Below are positions 9,810 to 51,264 of a stretch of DNA of 64,000 bases, piece by piece; position 1 is the stretch's first letter, and the number at the start of each line of letters is the position of its first letter. The notes below the pieces were generated by a model, which was not told the origin of the DNA, ran no database searches, and was given only the letters and a program-made list of their open reading frames with translations. The stretch comes from Cloacibacterium caeni (lineage in GTDB: Bacteria; Bacteroidota; Bacteroidia; Flavobacteriales; Weeksellaceae), in NCBI RefSeq assembly GCF_907163105.1, contig NZ_OU015321.1, forward strand, positions 558,001 through 622,000, read 5' to 3'. A program made the position numbers and the translations under genes.

Positions 9810-11837
9810 GTGAGGTTCCAATTCAATACATCGCAAAGTTTAGCAGAGATTCTTGATAAATATTTTTCTATCAAGAACGAAATGCGTGATTTAAAACCTC
9901 TTACAGAGCTTTTTCATTCTTTACAAAAAGAAAATTTCTCTGAGTTTTTAACTTTTCTTAAAGAACACGAAGAAATAAGACAAAACTTGGTGTATTACAT
10001 CAATACTGTTTTTATGGGAAGAGCTTTTAACCTTTCTCTTACCGAAGCCAATATTCTTTCAGAAGACGCTTTTTTTCCTGAATTAAGAAAAAGAATTTTG
10101 TCGAAATTTCTACCACCAGTAGAAGATGATAATACTATTTCTAACATTATTTCAAACGTTTTTTTCAGAGATAATGCTGATTTTAAATTCATCAAAAAAG
10201 TTTCTAGACAAGAATCTGATGAACTTTTCAGAATGTTGGAAATTGACCGCATGATTCTACAGCCAAAAGTAAAAAAAGAACTTCTTTTTTCGATGAATAT
10301 TTTGGCGTGGAGAGCTATTGGAAACGCCTTAGATGTAGATGTGCTGAAAATGGCTCCAGAATATAAAAATTTCGACAATCCATTTTTGGCATTACAAGAT
10401 GAATTAGATATTCTCATCAGCGATTTCAAAAAGAATCAAGCCATCGTTCTTACTTCTAAAGACAGTCATTATAAGCAAATTAAAATTTATCTTCAACAAT
10501 GTTTTGCTTTCATCAGCAAAGCTTTCAAAAATGCTTCTAAATACGGAATTTCTGGTAAAACCAATCAGTCTTTACTAAAAATTCGTCAACAATTACAACG
10601 TATTTCAGAAATTTTAGAACTTCTAGTCATTGATGATGAAAAAGATGTGATAAGAAAGTCTAAAAATTTGGTTATCAATATTTTAGATTATAAATCTCAC
10701 CGAAATAACATCCGAGATTTATTCAATGATAGCACCACATTGCTTTCGCATCTCATTACTACACATACCGCAGAAACAGGAACCAATTACATTACGACTT
10801 CGCCAAAAGAATATCTTAAAATGTTCAAAAAAGCAAGTGGAGGCGGAATTATCGTAGGTGCGCTTTGTGTTATAAAAATGCTATATGCTTATGTTCCAGG
10901 CAGTGAATTTTACCATGCGTTTTTATACTCTTTTAATTATGCGATGGGTTTCATTATGATTTATTTAATGAATTTCACGCTGGCTACAAAACAACCAGCC
11001 ATGACAGCTGCAACGATGGCAAAAGTGCTTTCTGAAGGAAAAAATAATTCTAAAAATTATCTAGATTTTGCCCATTTGGTTTCCAAATTATTCAGGAGTC
11101 AGTTCATTGCGTTTGTAGGAAATGTATTGCTGAGTTTCCCGATTGCGTTGGCCATTATTTATGGTTTAGAAATTCTTTTCGGACAGAATTTTGCCATTGA
11201 AAAATCTTCCACTCTGCTCAAAGATTTAGATCCATTTCATTCTAAAGCCTTATTCCATGCAGCTTTAGCGGGAGTTTATCTTTTCATTTCGGGGATTATT
11301 GCAGGAAATGTAGGAAACACCTCTGTTTTCTATAAAATTCCAGAACGAATTGCCAAAAATCCTTATATCCATTACCTTTTCGGAAGAAATTTTGCCGAAA
11401 ATCTTTCACAATATTATTCTAAAAATTGGGCGGGAATTATGTCTAACCTTTGGTTAGGGATTTTCTTAGGTTCTACAGCCACCATCGGTAAGTTTTTTGG
11501 ACTGGATTTAGATATTCGTCATATTACTTTCGCGGCCGGAAATTTTGCATTAGGATTATACGGAAAAGAATTTTCCATCGATACCCAAACGTTTATTATT
11601 GCTTTTGTAACGGTATTTGTAATTGGGTTCTTAAACTTTATTGTAAGTTTTGGATTGTCAATGTTTCTGGCATTCCGTTCTAGAAAAGTGAACTTTGGTG
11701 AGGTGAGAAATCTTAACCGAAGCATCATTAAATATTTCTTCAAAAATCCGCTGATTTTCTTTTTCCCAATTCGTTCTGTGTTAGACGAAAGAGCCAAAAA
11801 ATTAATTTCAGACACTACAAAACATACACATCCATAA
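9810..11837 (+). CDS. PF10136-type membrane protein (annotated in databases as site-specific recombinase)
   Basis: 675 residues starting with GTG, 13 bp after mtgA. The first 330 residues are soluble and helical. The second half holds roughly six to seven membrane helices, including GGGIIVGALCVIKMLYAYV, YAMGFIMIYLMNFTLATKQPAMTAATMA, FVGNVLLSFPIALAIIYGLEILFG and IIAFVTVFVIGFLNFIVSFGLSMFLAF. I recognise the family as PF10136 (gonococcal Gcr-like). No serine or tyrosine recombinase catalytic motif is visible and a polytopic membrane protein is an odd recombinase, so the family name should not be taken as function. Its 3' end overlaps the convergent DUF721 gene by 23 bp. Confidence 0.75.
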   Translation: MRFQFNTSQSLAEILDKYFSIKNEMRDLKPLTELFHSLQKENFSEFLTFLKEHEEIRQNLVYYINTVFMGRAFNLSLTEANILSEDAFFPELRKRILSKFLPPVEDDNTISNIISNVFFRDNADFKFIKKVSRQESDELFRMLEIDRMILQPKVKKELLFSMNILAWRAIGNALDVDVLKMAPEYKNFDNPFLALQDELDILISDFKKNQAIVLTSKDSHYKQIKIYLQQCFAFISKAFKNASKYGISGKTNQSLLKIRQQLQRISEILELLVIDDEKDVIRKSKNLVINILDYKSHRNNIRDLFNDSTTLLSHLITTHTAETGTNYITTSPKEYLKMFKKASGGGIIVGALCVIKMLYAYVPGSEFYHAFLYSFNYAMGFIMIYLMNFTLATKQPAMTAATMAKVLSEGKNNSKNYLDFAHLVSKLFRSQFIAFVGNVLLSFPIALAIIYGLEILFGQNFAIEKSSTLLKDLDPFHSKALFHAALAGVYLFISGIIAGNVGNTSVFYKIPERIAKNPYIHYLFGRNFAENLSQYYSKNWAGIMSNLWLGIFLGSTATIGKFFGLDLDIRHITFAAGNFALGLYGKEFSIDTQTFIIAFVTVFVIGFLNFIVSFGLSMFLAFRSRKVNFGEVRNLNRSIIKYFFKNPLIFFFPIRSVLDERAKKLISDTTKHTHP

Positions 11838-12105
11838 ATTGGTCGGCGCCAAATTCTTCTTGAAATTTCTTGAGGAAAAATGATTTTTTCATTCTAAAAT
11901 CATTTCTGAAAAGTGGAGATTTTATTCTGATTTCTAGAATTTTTTCATTCAGATTTACGCTTTCTATTTCTTTGAAAAAGGCTTCGTCTAAATAGTTTTT
12001 TAGAAAATCCTTGACTTGTAAAGCCAATAATTTATCCTCAAAACCATACAACTTGGCAAAACTTTTCACCAATTCAGAACTTTGATATTCTCTTTTCTTT
12101 TTCAT
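11815..12105 (-). CDS. DUF721 (DciA-like) protein
   Basis: 96-residue basic cytoplasmic protein of the DUF721 family, which includes DciA, the replicative helicase loader/partner in bacteria lacking DnaC. Only the short core is present: N-terminal helices with the W/F-rich region replaced by SSELVKSFAKLYGFEDKLLALQVKDFLKNYL, and beta strands KILEIRIKSPLFRNDF. DUF721 genes commonly sit beside recF in flavobacteria. Here a 470-bp insert with an S23-family gene separates the two. A heptad array (12111-12133) ends 5 bp from the start codon, where a ribosome binding site would lie. Confidence 0.75.
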   Translation of the reverse strand: MKKKREYQSSELVKSFAKLYGFEDKLLALQVKDFLKNYLDEAFFKEIESVNLNEKILEIRIKSPLFRNDFRMKKSFFLKKFQEEFGADQFMDVYVL

Positions 12106-12110
12106 TTTTG

Positions 12111-12135
12111 AGTTACGAGTTACGAGTTACGAGAT
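12111..12135. repeat. Heptad array AGTTACG x3, left arm of inverted pair
   Basis: AGTTACG occurs three times in exact tandem (12111-12131), then AGAT. The 13-mer CGAGTTACGAGAT (12123-12135) recurs as its perfect reverse complement at 12583-12595. The two arms bracket the S23-family gene and nothing else. Confidence 0.85.
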
Positions 12136-12156
12136 TCTTGGTTTAAAGTTAGTGGT

Positions 12157-12537
12157 TCAATTCTCTTCTTTTCCTTTATTCCAATTGAGTTTTACCCACT
12201 TTAAATAATTATTTATTTTTCCACCAAGTAAGTCATATTCATCTCTTAGTATTTTAAATTCCGAATTAATTTCAGGATAAAGCAAAATAATTTTTTCTAG
12301 ATGATTAATGGTTTCGTCACAACTTGAATGTGTGAAAACTAAAAATCTTTCATATTCTTTTTTATAAATACTCCTCCCATAACCTTCTACAATATTGGTT
12401 ATTACAGAATCTGCGGAACGTCTTAATTGGCTTCCTAATTCATACAATTCATGTTTTGGAAGTAAAAATGAAGTTTTATGTGTTTTAATAAATAACTCAA
12501 AACTTATTTTATAAATGTCTAAATTTCTATAACTCAT
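12157..12537 (-). CDS. Four-helix-bundle protein (S23/IVS family)
   Basis: 126 residues. The family (23S rRNA intervening-sequence protein; the fold is shared with Avd of diversity-generating retroelements) forms pentameric four-helix bundles with a basic nucleic-acid-binding face. Visible family motifs: YRNLDIYKISFELFIKTHK in helix 1, ELGSQLRRSADSVITNIVEGYGR in helix 2, YERFLVFTHSSCDETINHL in helix 3 and a long helix 4. The gene stands alone, far from rRNA, between dciA-like and recF, and is flanked by inverted heptad arrays. Biochemical role of such free-standing members is not established. Confidence 0.88.
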   Translation of the reverse strand: MSYRNLDIYKISFELFIKTHKTSFLLPKHELYELGSQLRRSADSVITNIVEGYGRSIYKKEYERFLVFTHSSCDETINHLEKIILLYPEINSEFKILRDEYDLLGGKINNYLKWVKLNWNKGKEEN

Positions 12538-12582
12538 GGTAATTTAGTTTTTTATTATGTTGAAATTCAATACACATTTTAT

Positions 12583-12605
12583 ATCTCGTAACTCGAAACA
12601 CGAAT
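12583..12605. repeat. Inverted heptad array, right arm
   Basis: ATCTCGTAACTCG (12583-12595) is the exact reverse complement of the left arm. It continues AAACACG (12596-12602), a diverged heptad, and ends at the recF stop codon (12605-12607). Confidence 0.8.
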
Positions 12606-13684
12606 CAGATTTGAAAAATCTTACTTTCTTCATTAATCCTTTTCACCACAGATTCTGTACGTTCTCTGTGTGTATCTGTTATGAAAATCTGTCCGAAATT
12701 CTGTTGGTTCACCAATTCTATCAACTGAGAAACTCTATTGTCATCTAATTTGTCAAAAATATCATCCAAAAGAAGAATAGGATTTTTGTTCGTGATGTCT
12801 TTAATCCTTTTTATTTGAGCCAATTTCAGAGCAATGAGGAAAGATTTTTGTTGACCTTGACTTCCGAATTTTTTAATCAAATTTCCATTCATTTCGAAGC
12901 GTAAATCATCTTTATGAATTCCTCGTGAAGTATAAGTGAGAACTCTGTCTTTTTCGAGGTTTTCGCTTAAGATTTCTTCGAAATTTTGTTCATTCAAATT
13001 ACTTTCATAAATCACGGTAACTTTTTCGTTTCCTTTTGAAATAATCTCATAGAAATGTTGAATTGTAGGCAAAATAGACGCTACAAATCGCTGTCTTTTT
13101 TCAAAAATTTGAGTTCCAAATTTGGTTAAAGGTTCGTTGTATATTTCTAGAGAATCGAGGTCGAAAGTTCTGTTTTTAGCAAAGTATTTGAGCAATGCAT
13201 TTCTTTGTTGAAGCGTTTTTTGGTATTGAATCAGCGCAAAAAGATAATCAGAATCGGTCTGAGAAATCATGGCATCTAGAAACTTTCTTCTGCTTTCGCT
13301 GCCATCAGAAATGAGGTTCGCATCGTAAGGAGAAATCATCACGCTTGGTAAAAATCCAATGTGGTCGGCAATTCTTTCGTAGGTTTTATCATTTTTTTTA
13401 ATGATTTTTTTCCCTTCTTTGGGCAATTGCACTTTGATGATGTCATTTTTTTCTTCTCCTTGAATTTCTGCTTCTATCGCAAAAAAATCGCTTTCGTGTA
13501 AAATGTTTTGAGCATCAAGATTTCCCAGAAAACTTTTTGCCATCGAAAGATAATGAAGCGCATCCAGAATATTGGTTTTTCCAGCGCCGTTATTTCCCAC
13601 GAAGCAATTGATTTCTGGCGAAAAATCGAATGATTTTTCACTGTGATTTTTGAAATTGAATATTTTCAGATTTTTGATGATCAT
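12605..13684 (-). CDS. recF: DNA replication/repair protein RecF
   Basis: 359-residue SMC-like ATPase that binds gapped DNA and, in the RecFOR pathway, helps load RecA. Walker A GNNGAGKTN near residue 30, signature KFGSQGQQKS around residue 270 and Walker B PILLLDDIFDKLD near 300 are intact. N-terminus MIIKNLKIFNFKNH is typical. A TAATTTTG box ends only 4 bp before the ATG, predicting a leaderless mRNA. Upstream on the same strand is a UbiA-like gene; downstream lie the S23 insert and the DUF721 gene. Confidence 0.97.
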   Translation of the reverse strand: MIIKNLKIFNFKNHSEKSFDFSPEINCFVGNNGAGKTNILDALHYLSMAKSFLGNLDAQNILHESDFFAIEAEIQGEEKNDIIKVQLPKEGKKIIKKNDKTYERIADHIGFLPSVMISPYDANLISDGSESRRKFLDAMISQTDSDYLFALIQYQKTLQQRNALLKYFAKNRTFDLDSLEIYNEPLTKFGTQIFEKRQRFVASILPTIQHFYEIISKGNEKVTVIYESNLNEQNFEEILSENLEKDRVLTYTSRGIHKDDLRFEMNGNLIKKFGSQGQQKSFLIALKLAQIKRIKDITNKNPILLLDDIFDKLDDNRVSQLIELVNQQNFGQIFITDTHRERTESVVKRINEESKIFQI

Positions 13685-31272: not shown

Positions 31273-31347
31273 ATTTAGATTTGAGACATTAGATTTGAGA
31301 TTTGAGAAATGTGTACTTTGTATTTATGTCTTTCATCAACCATCAAC
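31273..31347. repeat. Two-part heptad array upstream of the TIGR01777 gene
   Basis: ATTTAGA-TTTGAGA-CATTAGA-TTTGAGA-TTTGAGA (31273-31307) has exact period 7. After a 26-bp spacer, CATCAAC occurs twice (31334-31347). The first part begins 3 bp from the gene start codon; the second ends 6 bp before the stop codon of the DUF493 gene. Confidence 0.8.
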
Positions 31348-31353
31348 CTTTTC

Positions 31354-36982: not shown

Positions 36983-37031
36983 GAGCTTCGAGTTTCAACA
37001 TCCATCATCCATCATCCAACTTCTATCTTCT
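36983..37031. repeat. Heptad array (7 units) abutting the E1 gene stop
   Basis: GAGCTTC-GAGTTTC-AACATCC-ATCATCC-ATCATCC-AACTTCT-ATCTTCT, exact period 7 over 49 bp. It reaches the first base of the minus-strand E1 stop codon (37031-37033). Confidence 0.8.
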
Positions 37032-39175: not shown

Positions 39176-39652
39176 TTAAGCTTCAGTGTTTGCTTCTTCA
39201 GTAGCTACATCAGAAACAACTTCGAATTCATATTCGAATTCTACGTTTCTGTGAGGTCTTACTTTAGCAGAGAATTTACCTGTTCTCTTGATAGTATTTC
39301 CAGGGATTTTGATGTATTTTTTGTCTACTTCTACACCAGCTTTAGCTAATTCTTCAGCTAAAGTAGCATTGTTAATAGAACCAAAAATCTTATCACCTGT
39401 ACCTACTTTTGCAGCGATAGAAACAGTTGTAGCTTTTAATTTTTCGATGATTGCAGTTGCAGCAGCGATTAATTTAGCTTCTTCTTCTTTTCTAGCTTCT
39501 AAAGTAGCTTCTAGAGCAGCTTTATTTTTAGGAGTTGCAAGAAGTGCATAACCTTGAGGAATTAAAAAGTTTCTTGCATAACCTGGTTTTACATTTACTG
39601 TATCAAACTCAAGTCCTAAGTTTTCTACGTCTTTTTTTAGGATAATTTCCAT
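39176..39652 (-). CDS. rplI: 50S ribosomal protein L9
   Basis: 158 residues, two-domain L9. The N-terminal rRNA-binding domain reads MEIILKKDVENLG...VKPGYARNFLIPQGYALLAT, followed by the long connecting helix (Ala/Lys/Glu, about 42-75) and the C-terminal domain GTGDKIFGSINNATLAEELAKAGVEVDKKYI. An acidic Thr/Glu tail extends past the usual 148-residue end. Last gene of rpsF-rpsR-rplI, before a strong terminator. Confidence 0.98.
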   Translation of the reverse strand: MEIILKKDVENLGLEFDTVNVKPGYARNFLIPQGYALLATPKNKAALEATLEARKEEEAKLIAAATAIIEKLKATTVSIAAKVGTGDKIFGSINNATLAEELAKAGVEVDKKYIKIPGNTIKRTGKFSAKVRPHRNVEFEYEFEVVSDVATEEANTEA

Positions 39653-39673: not shown

Positions 39674-39762
39674 TTAGAAGTTAGATTTTAGAAGTTAGAA
39701 GTTAGAATTTAGAAAACTATCAACTAACAACTAATAACCAACAACCAATGATTAATAATTAT
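39674..39762. repeat. Two-part heptad array filling the rpsR-rplI gap
   Basis: TTAGAAG-TTAGATT-TTAGAAG-TTAGAAG-TTAGAAT-TTAGAAA (39674-39715), then after 5 bp CAACTAA-CAACTAA-TAACCAA-CAACCAA-TGATTAA-TAATTAT (39721-39762), both with exact period 7. The halves are roughly complementary (TTAG..G against C..CTAA). The last unit reaches the rpsR stop codon (39759-39761). Most of the intergenic space of an essential ribosomal operon is array. Confidence 0.9.
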
Positions 39763-49945: not shown

Positions 49946-51264
49946 GTCCTAAATAAAAATTATTAAAAATAGAAACAGCCTAAATACCTATTTTACATTT
50001 AGCTTTACATTTAATTTCAAAAAAGAACCCCTTGATAATAGTTTTTGGGGGTTTCAGGCGGTTGCTCAAATGGTTTGTCGAGCCAAAATTGAAGATTAAT
50101 TTTAACAAAAATATTCAATCGGATAAAAGCTACCAGATTTGATAATTGCCAATTATATTTAGCGATGGATTTCAGGTATTTCAGAATGAGAATAGTGATA
50201 AGTGCCGTCCAGATTTGGATTTTCACTGCATTTTCAGAAGTTCCAATGAAGGTTTTGATGTGAAGCAACTGCTTGATATCTCTAAAAAAGATCTCAATTT
50301 GCCATCTTTGCTTGTATAATTCTGCTATGGTAGAAGCAGCCCAAGAGAAATTATTGGAAATCATTTCAATGGTTTGCTTGTTTTCATTATCCCAAATAGC
50401 CACTCTTCTTAATTTTTTTGGATATTTTTCTTTGGATAAAGGATTTGAGAGTACTATTTCTTCGTCTTTTAGGATGCTTTGAGCTCCTTTTGGTGGAAGT
50501 TCTCGTTCCTGTAAAGTTTCAAATTTCAGATTTTCTTTATGTCTTATTACGAAGAAAACACCTTTGCTGTCCCAAATAGAGAGCATTGGAAAATCGTTAT
50601 AGAATCGGTCTGCAACAATGACTGCTCCCTTTTCCAAAGGAATGTTTTCCGCTCCCTTGTTATCAGCAACACTTCCTTTGGTAATATTCACATAAACAGG
50701 AAGTTTCCCGTCATATTCAAGTAAGGTATGCATTTTCACGGCTCCTTTTTTAGTTCGATATGTTGCCCAATCGAACAAAGACAGGCATAGAGAAATAAGG
50801 GTAGAATCTAATAAATAGACAGGAACTTTTATTTTGAGTTTTATCCGTCTTTCTTTCGTGTGCTGTCCTAATTGTTCTAATAGTTTGAAATACACGTCTT
50901 TAAACAAATCTGCATCTCGTTTTCCATTCTGGTAGCTAATAGAAGATTTGGAAGGTGCTGTTTTTATCCCTAAATGATTCAGGTTTCCTGTGGCACTGCG
51001 AAGCCCGTTGGAAATGTCCCGAACCGAAGTGCTTTTGGCAAAATGACAGAAAAGCATAGAAACTAAGTGGTTCCAACTATCAAATCCTTTATTTCGGTAA
51101 TCGGTTTTCTTCTCAATTACTATTTTTTTGAAAATCCCTCGGTCTATTTTTGAAATGATTTGGGAAAATAATGTTAATTTTGAATCCATAAGAAGGTTTT
51201 TTTGTTGTACAACCTCAAAGATACTTTGAGTTACTTTAATTCCTTCTTATTTTTTTATTTAGGA
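49946..51264. mobile_element. IS4-family insertion sequence
   Basis: GTCCTAAATAAAAA (49946-49959) and its perfect reverse complement TTTTTATTTAGGAC (51251-51264) form 14-bp terminal inverted repeats around a full-length DDE transposase gene. Total 1319 bp, a normal size. No target duplication directly abuts the repeats; TATTGATT occurs near both ends but at different distances. The element lies between the DUF3298 and lipid-kinase genes without breaking either. Confidence 0.88.
50017..51189 (-). CDS. IS4-family DDE transposase
   Basis: 390 residues, complete. N-terminal helical region with SVRDISNGLRSATGNLNHLGI. RNase H-like core: VYLLDSTLISL (first Asp), GAVIVADRFYND (second Asp), and the IS4 YREK signature YKQRWQIEIFFRDIKQ with the catalytic Glu. 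HTLLEYDGKLPVYVNITKGSVAD is also IS4-typical. No frameshift or stop, so it is probably active. Confidence 0.95.
   Translation of the reverse strand: MDSKLTLFSQIISKIDRGIFKKIVIEKKTDYRNKGFDSWNHLVSMLFCHFAKSTSVRDISNGLRSATGNLNHLGIKTAPSKSSISYQNGKRDADLFKDVYFKLLEQLGQHTKERRIKLKIKVPVYLLDSTLISLCLSLFDWATYRTKKGAVKMHTLLEYDGKLPVYVNITKGSVADNKGAENIPLEKGAVIVADRFYNDFPMLSIWDSKGVFFVIRHKENLKFETLQERELPPKGAQSILKDEEIVLSNPLSKEKYPKKLRRVAIWDNENKQTIEMISNNFSWAASTIAELYKQRWQIEIFFRDIKQLLHIKTFIGTSENAVKIQIWTALITILILKYLKSIAKYNWQLSNLVAFIRLNIFVKINLQFWLDKPFEQPPETPKNYYQGVLF

Follow-up and report, generated by a model that had tools for sequence, protein, structure and literature searches.

The window, as we call the whole 64,000-nucleotide stretch of Cloacibacterium caeni DNA analysed here, contains at 12157-12537 on the minus strand a small gene encoding a protein of 126 residues. 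It lies between recF (12605-13684, minus strand; Pfam SMC_N and AAA matches; conserved in 39 of 40 relatives), which is upstream in the direction of transcription, and a downstream 96-residue ORF (11815-12105, minus strand). The small protein belongs to the S23 (23S_rRNA_IVP) family of four-helix bundles, matching PF05635 with an E-value of 6e-20 (71.8 bits, cut-off 33.8) and TIGR02436 with 3e-22 (78.9 bits, cut-off 24). The only solved structure related to it by sequence is PDB 2GSC (five chains, E 2.8e-7). A preliminary description had called the 96-residue ORF dciA-like; some resemblance to Pfam DciA is indeed present, but with an E-value of 0.014 and 16 bits against a cut-off of 24 this identity is weak. 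On the 3′ side of the S23 gene, Tandem Repeats Finder (TRF) reports a perfect period-7 array at 12110-12133 (minus strand; unit GAGTTAC, 3.4 copies, 100% matches), which reads CTCGTAACTCGTAACTCGTAACTC in the S23 sense and holds three tandem AGTTACG units at 12111-12131. On the 5′ side, 13 bp at 12583-12595, ATCTCGTAACTCG, match this array perfectly in inverted orientation and include a single inverted AGTTACG copy at 12587-12593. The order of transcription on the minus strand is recF, CGAGTTACGAGAT (the 13-bp 5′ arm in the S23 sense), S23, CTCGTAACTCGTAACTCGTAACTC and the dciA-like gene. Sequence and TRF agree with the preliminary description that an S23-family gene lies between an AGTTACG array and its inverted copy, and that the 13-bp match is perfect. 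Two distances needed correction: the left array begins 4 rather than 5 bp away from where the 11815-12105 gene (there labelled DUF721) starts, and the right arm, instead of touching the recF stop, ends 9 bp short of it.

Inverted matching of flanks was scored by aligning the upstream flank of an S23 gene to the reverse complement of its own downstream flank, with downstream flanks of other loci as the control. The window S23 gene scores 15, a value reached by only 0.2% of mismatched flank pairs and the joint maximum among the 57 genes of the window; the other gene with this score (50017-51189) has no heptad array. All five PF05635 members of this genome lie, by eye, between inverted period-7 arrays, each with a heptad of its own (TTAGAAT, CAGCAAT, AGAGTTG, GAGTTAC and AGTAAAA in the S23 sense). 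Four of them score above cross pairs, and the L002 group, at 8, does not. Mean scores of own and cross pairs were 14.2 and 7.9 in the genus (24 gene groups), 12.8 and 7.4 in the phylum Bacteroidota (69 loci), and 17.1 and 7.5 in 78 loci from more than 20 phyla (Planctomycetota, Verrucomicrobiota, Clostridia, Proteobacteria, Acidobacteriota, Chloroflexota, Gemmatimonadota, CPR and others), where 68% of own pairs exceed the 99th percentile of cross pairs. A test set of 31 loci on viral contigs, fetched once the method was fixed and including several near-duplicates, gave 17.6 and 8.0. The loci are not independent, sharing descent and a single search pattern, so small p-values are descriptive. 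In the direct orientation the genus showed no effect (8.3 against 8.2), and the wider sets only a slight one (8.2 against 7.1 and 8.7 against 7.3). Self-matching of S23 flanks peaks at a lag of 7 with harmonics at 14 and 21 in the genus, phylum and multi-phylum sets. Neighbouring ORFs at the same loci have a mean inverted score of 7.7, with 2% above 12. Nearly all of ten plasmid loci read directly (nine cyanobacterial, one from Gemmatirosa) carry arms, such as GGGAACA/TGTTCCC in Nostoc and AGTAGGG/CCCTACT between RNR genes.

S23 flanks show both 7-mer periodicity and inverted arms, and the link that the preliminary description suspected between S23 protein and heptad arrays holds in the genus, phylum, multi-phylum, plasmid and viral-contig sets. 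We regard this link as practically certain. The arms are specific to S23 genes, locus-specific and inverted; a clear arm match is absent in about a quarter to half of S23 loci, depending on the set. The family is present in 116 of 148 sampled Bacteroidota genomes. Familiar mainly as an rRNA insert, it has, to our knowledge, no known function, and complementary heptad arms around the ORF are a first general, testable feature for it. A literature search, with subscription papers and preprints outside its reach, found no paper tying S23 genes to heptads as a class.

What is conserved at these loci is the matching of the arms and not the sequence of the heptads. Heptads vary from locus to locus and show no relation to S23 protein similarity below about 60% identity, which gives no support to recognition of the heptad by the S23 protein or to the earlier proposal that the protein acts on AGTTACG itself. 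An identical end sequence in all copies, as in a transposon, was not found. A fixed heptad motif shared by the arms was likewise rejected: the 5′ arms have a weak TNAG core (score 3.26 against a shuffled maximum of 2.90), and a search of the 3′ arms gave no motif. When orthologue pairs at the same junction (40-90% identity) were compared, a gene's own arms scored 12.0 and swapped arms 7.9, with own arms ahead in 15 of 16 junction clusters (p 0.0015 by cluster), indicating that the two arms change together. S23 proteins are more alike at the same operon junction (61% identity) than elsewhere (42%), so that many are orthologues kept in place. The 5′ heptads contain only 10% C in the sense strand, a composition that would favour pairing between the two arms over pairing within either one.

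Folding of the flank-ORF-flank sequences gave 33 expected arm-arm base pairs, compared with 15 for swapped arms and 10 for neighbouring ORFs. Swapped arms still pair partly because 5′ arms are poor in C and 3′ arms poor in G. In the window RNA, a 13-bp closing stem appears in both the MFE and the centroid predicted structures, and the total fold energy of the unit is unexceptional (z -1.4). The S23 gene lies in sense between two co-directional genes at 115 of 166 loci and is antisense to both neighbours at 18. On these folding models, an RNA stem closing the S23 ORF is likely.

Such a design recalls the intervening sequences (IVS) of 23S rRNA, which are excised by RNase III and have been termed a selfish element of unclear origin (PMC4990558). 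The Coxiella IVS has an inverted-repeat stem, an S23 ORF and two to three GACAGAT heptamers directly before the ORF; the number of heptamers differs between strains, and an RNase III site lies at the first of them (PMC4990558). Like the IVS of Coxiella, Leptospira and Haemophilus, the elements described here have an S23-family ORF closed by an inverted-repeat stem, which in the window unit is a predicted one. They differ in residing in protein-coding operons or within coding genes, in having heptad arrays as both arms, and in extending over more than 20 phyla. Lying between recF and the dciA-like gene and not inside a 23S rRNA gene, the window unit is an IVS by anatomy but not by location. An rRNA location was also ruled out for 20 further S23 loci, in which an Rfam scan found no rRNA. 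This common arm anatomy ties rRNA IVS to free-standing genes for four-helix bundles.

We favour, as the probable explanation, an IVS-like RNA element, probably selfish, that is tolerated in operon spacers. Its layout is that of the rRNA IVS: a 5′ heptad arm, an S23 mini-gene and a complementary 3′ heptad arm. In the operon transcript the arms would pair, enclosing the S23 ORF in a single large stem-loop. By analogy with rRNA IVS, RNase III would then cut the stem, freeing the S23 message and splitting recF from the dciA-like gene; cutting of the arm stem is plausible, at little better than even odds. A selfish nature, which we find a reasonably plausible part of this explanation, would let the passenger persist where cutting or read-through barely harms the host RNA. 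The sites kept would be mostly spacers between co-directional genes and sometimes the interior of a gene that can be read across the element without a stop. The S23 protein, as an oligomer, probably binds the RNA stem through its structure and not through the heptad sequence.

At about a dozen loci, S23 and its arms lie within a longer stop-free ORF that spans the whole element. The host frame is always +2 relative to S23: the first set has 13 such cases and none in the other sense frame (L157, L213 and L204 among the 13 are short overlaps that may be due to chance), and the viral set adds two, both +2. Within the nested S23 genes, the host frame has 0 stops where codon shuffling predicts 33-44, and the other frame has 103 where 86-100 are expected. 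These stop counts weigh less than the frame bias and the two-sided homology, since an open frame was the criterion by which nested loci were chosen. The hosts include the error-prone DNA polymerase DnaE2 (L246:3-3350, NF004225 at 1154 bits; L282:604-4440, 1361 bits; each matched in two stretches), the BREX-1 protein PglX (L201:3-2501 and L284:361-3474, both interrupted at model position 1007) and DNA methylases (L082, L098, L109, L107, L127, L219 and L235). In DnaE2 and PglX the element occupies the same site of the host gene in different organisms. Alignment of the L246 protein with E. coli DnaE extends to either side of an insert of about 190 residues, located at DnaE 576/583. As the host frame is open through the nested elements, removal of the kind performed by an intron or intein is not required, and these reading frames suggest a host protein that contains the insert. 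Nested S23 genes are a natural experiment on dual coding and on the tolerance of a large enzyme for an insert of about 190 residues.

The recF-dciA junctions of relatives, whose alignment the preliminary description had recommended, carry the unit, lack it or have it replaced. S23 is found there in this genome, in G005, where it is broken by a stop and the 3′ arm (L033) differs from ours in copy number and sequence, and in a member of another genus (G010). G002 and G006 have an empty junction of 17 bp, and congeners G001, G003 and G004 have other small genes instead. In these congeners (L034, L037 and L038), the small genes are followed by the palindrome GCTTCGCTGCGCTCGC in L034 and L038. GTAACTC occurs once at the empty site of one congener, and GTGACTC in the other. 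The former had suggested that arrays are templated by the target, an idea we dropped; the heptad may equally be a relic of loss, because another genus has at this place an S23 relative with similar heptads (L044).

Relatives were also compared at 22 further S23 junctions, where, between flanking genes that are mostly 90-98% identical, they have a short spacer, a different insert or solo heptads in place of the gene. Spacers of close relatives (L158-L197) were found to be swapped wholesale, up to the stop and start codons, with flanking genes again mostly 90-98% identical. The filled and empty versions of the 22 junctions revealed no target-site duplication, and wholesale spacer replacement hides old events; no duplicate insertions were seen among the S23 loci compared. 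Since neither kind of duplication was seen, the case for mobility is one of presence and absence alone. Across different genus junctions in the compared set, no two S23 proteins are more than about 72% identical, which gives no sign of recent copying. Without target duplications or close paralogues at different sites, and with spacers replaced as a whole, the discrete, precisely moving cassette envisaged at the outset is not borne out.

Presence and absence among relatives so close would also be expected if the arms were terminal inverted repeats at the DNA level, a substrate for the S23 protein or for some host enzyme, with RNA pairing as a by-product. Occupation of the same junctions in different phyla (for example L117/L208 and L136/L238), the shared sites in DnaE2 and PglX, and the occurrence of S23 on plasmids and viral contigs fit such DNA ends as well. 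We nevertheless hold them to be unlikely: unlike known terminal repeats, the heptads are locus-specific and do not track protein similarity, and the missing target duplication, the ceiling of about 72% on identity across junctions and the strong bias to the sense orientation count against them too. Still less likely are arms that act as autoregulatory RNA, the S23 protein of a host gene binding its own stem to tune the operon or its own expression. Persistence of orthologues at one junction, arm pairing kept over time and mostly intact S23 ORFs agree with such a role, but congeners whose flanking genes are nearly identical have the same junction empty or otherwise filled, the functions of neighbouring genes are unrelated, and some copies, such as that of G005, are broken.

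PF05635 proteins resemble Avd of diversity-generating retroelements (PMC10053308), with which S23 shares a four-helix-bundle fold class (PDB 2GSC), and S23 elements might accordingly move by reverse transcription with a partner enzyme. This is very improbable: in six of seven congeners, this genome included, no reverse transcriptase was found, although all seven carry 3-13 S23 genes. Unlike Avd, S23 stands alone here between heptad arms; this genome has no RVT_1 match, and so not the neighbouring reverse transcriptase that, along with template and variable repeats, marks a diversity-generating retroelement. That heptad arrays are a general slippage-prone feature of spacers which S23 shares by chance is hardly credible, since, common as arrays without S23 are in this genome, the flank tests already contradict it, with no such flanks at neighbouring ORFs and arms that match within and not across loci, in inverted and barely in direct orientation.

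Many heptad arrays have no S23 gene, and three such sites lie in operon spacers of the window. TTTGAGA and CATCAAC arrays fill part of a spacer between two genes at 31273-31348 (TRF and sequence), a CATCCAT array at 36999-37031 adjoins the end of the 37031-39010 gene (minus strand), and two adjoining arrays, TTAGAAG and AACTAAC, lie at 39674-39748 between the 39176-39652 and 39759-40061 genes (both sites by TRF). In the direction of transcription the first array is poor in C and the second, where present, poor in G, as in S23 elements. All three may be S23-less derivatives; the first two are possibly related to S23 elements, and the third is possibly a hairpin without S23. REP/REPIN sequences with RAYT genes are comparable in that one gene is flanked by short inverted repeats and many solo repeats occur in other places. 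S23 elements differ in lacking a transposase, in having a repeat of their own at each locus, and in arrays of period 7 in place of palindromes.

Tandem intergenic heptamers, in some of the same phyla, are likewise known as the heptanucleotide STRR of cyanobacteria and the TAACTGA repeats of Beggiatoaceae (MacGregor 2015, PMC4679880). The TAACTGA paper does not mention S23 (PMC4679880). S23 genes on Nostoc plasmids have arms of the STRR kind, and S23 elements offer a possible source for unexplained heptanucleotide repeats. The cyanobacterial S23 heptads (L149-L156) presumably resemble these long-known STRR repeats. The elements themselves are located between RNR genes, between cas6 and cas4, and between cmr genes.

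More tentatively, and with somewhat less than even confidence, we propose that S23 genes define a class of intervening elements that spans phyla, inserts into transcribed regions and ends in heptad arrays that match each other and have no fixed sequence. In coding genes they would be translation-transparent nested genes, with S23 in one frame and DnaE2, PglX or a methylase stop-free in another. The rRNA IVS would be one special instance of this class, whose solo remains may survive as the heptanucleotide repeats of cyanobacteria and Bacteroidota. In a DNA methylase gene, the C-terminal part of one ORF (L219, 3-2546) contains inverted heptads without S23, at a site that by eye is homologous to the insertion in L098; L098 and L109 carry the whole element.
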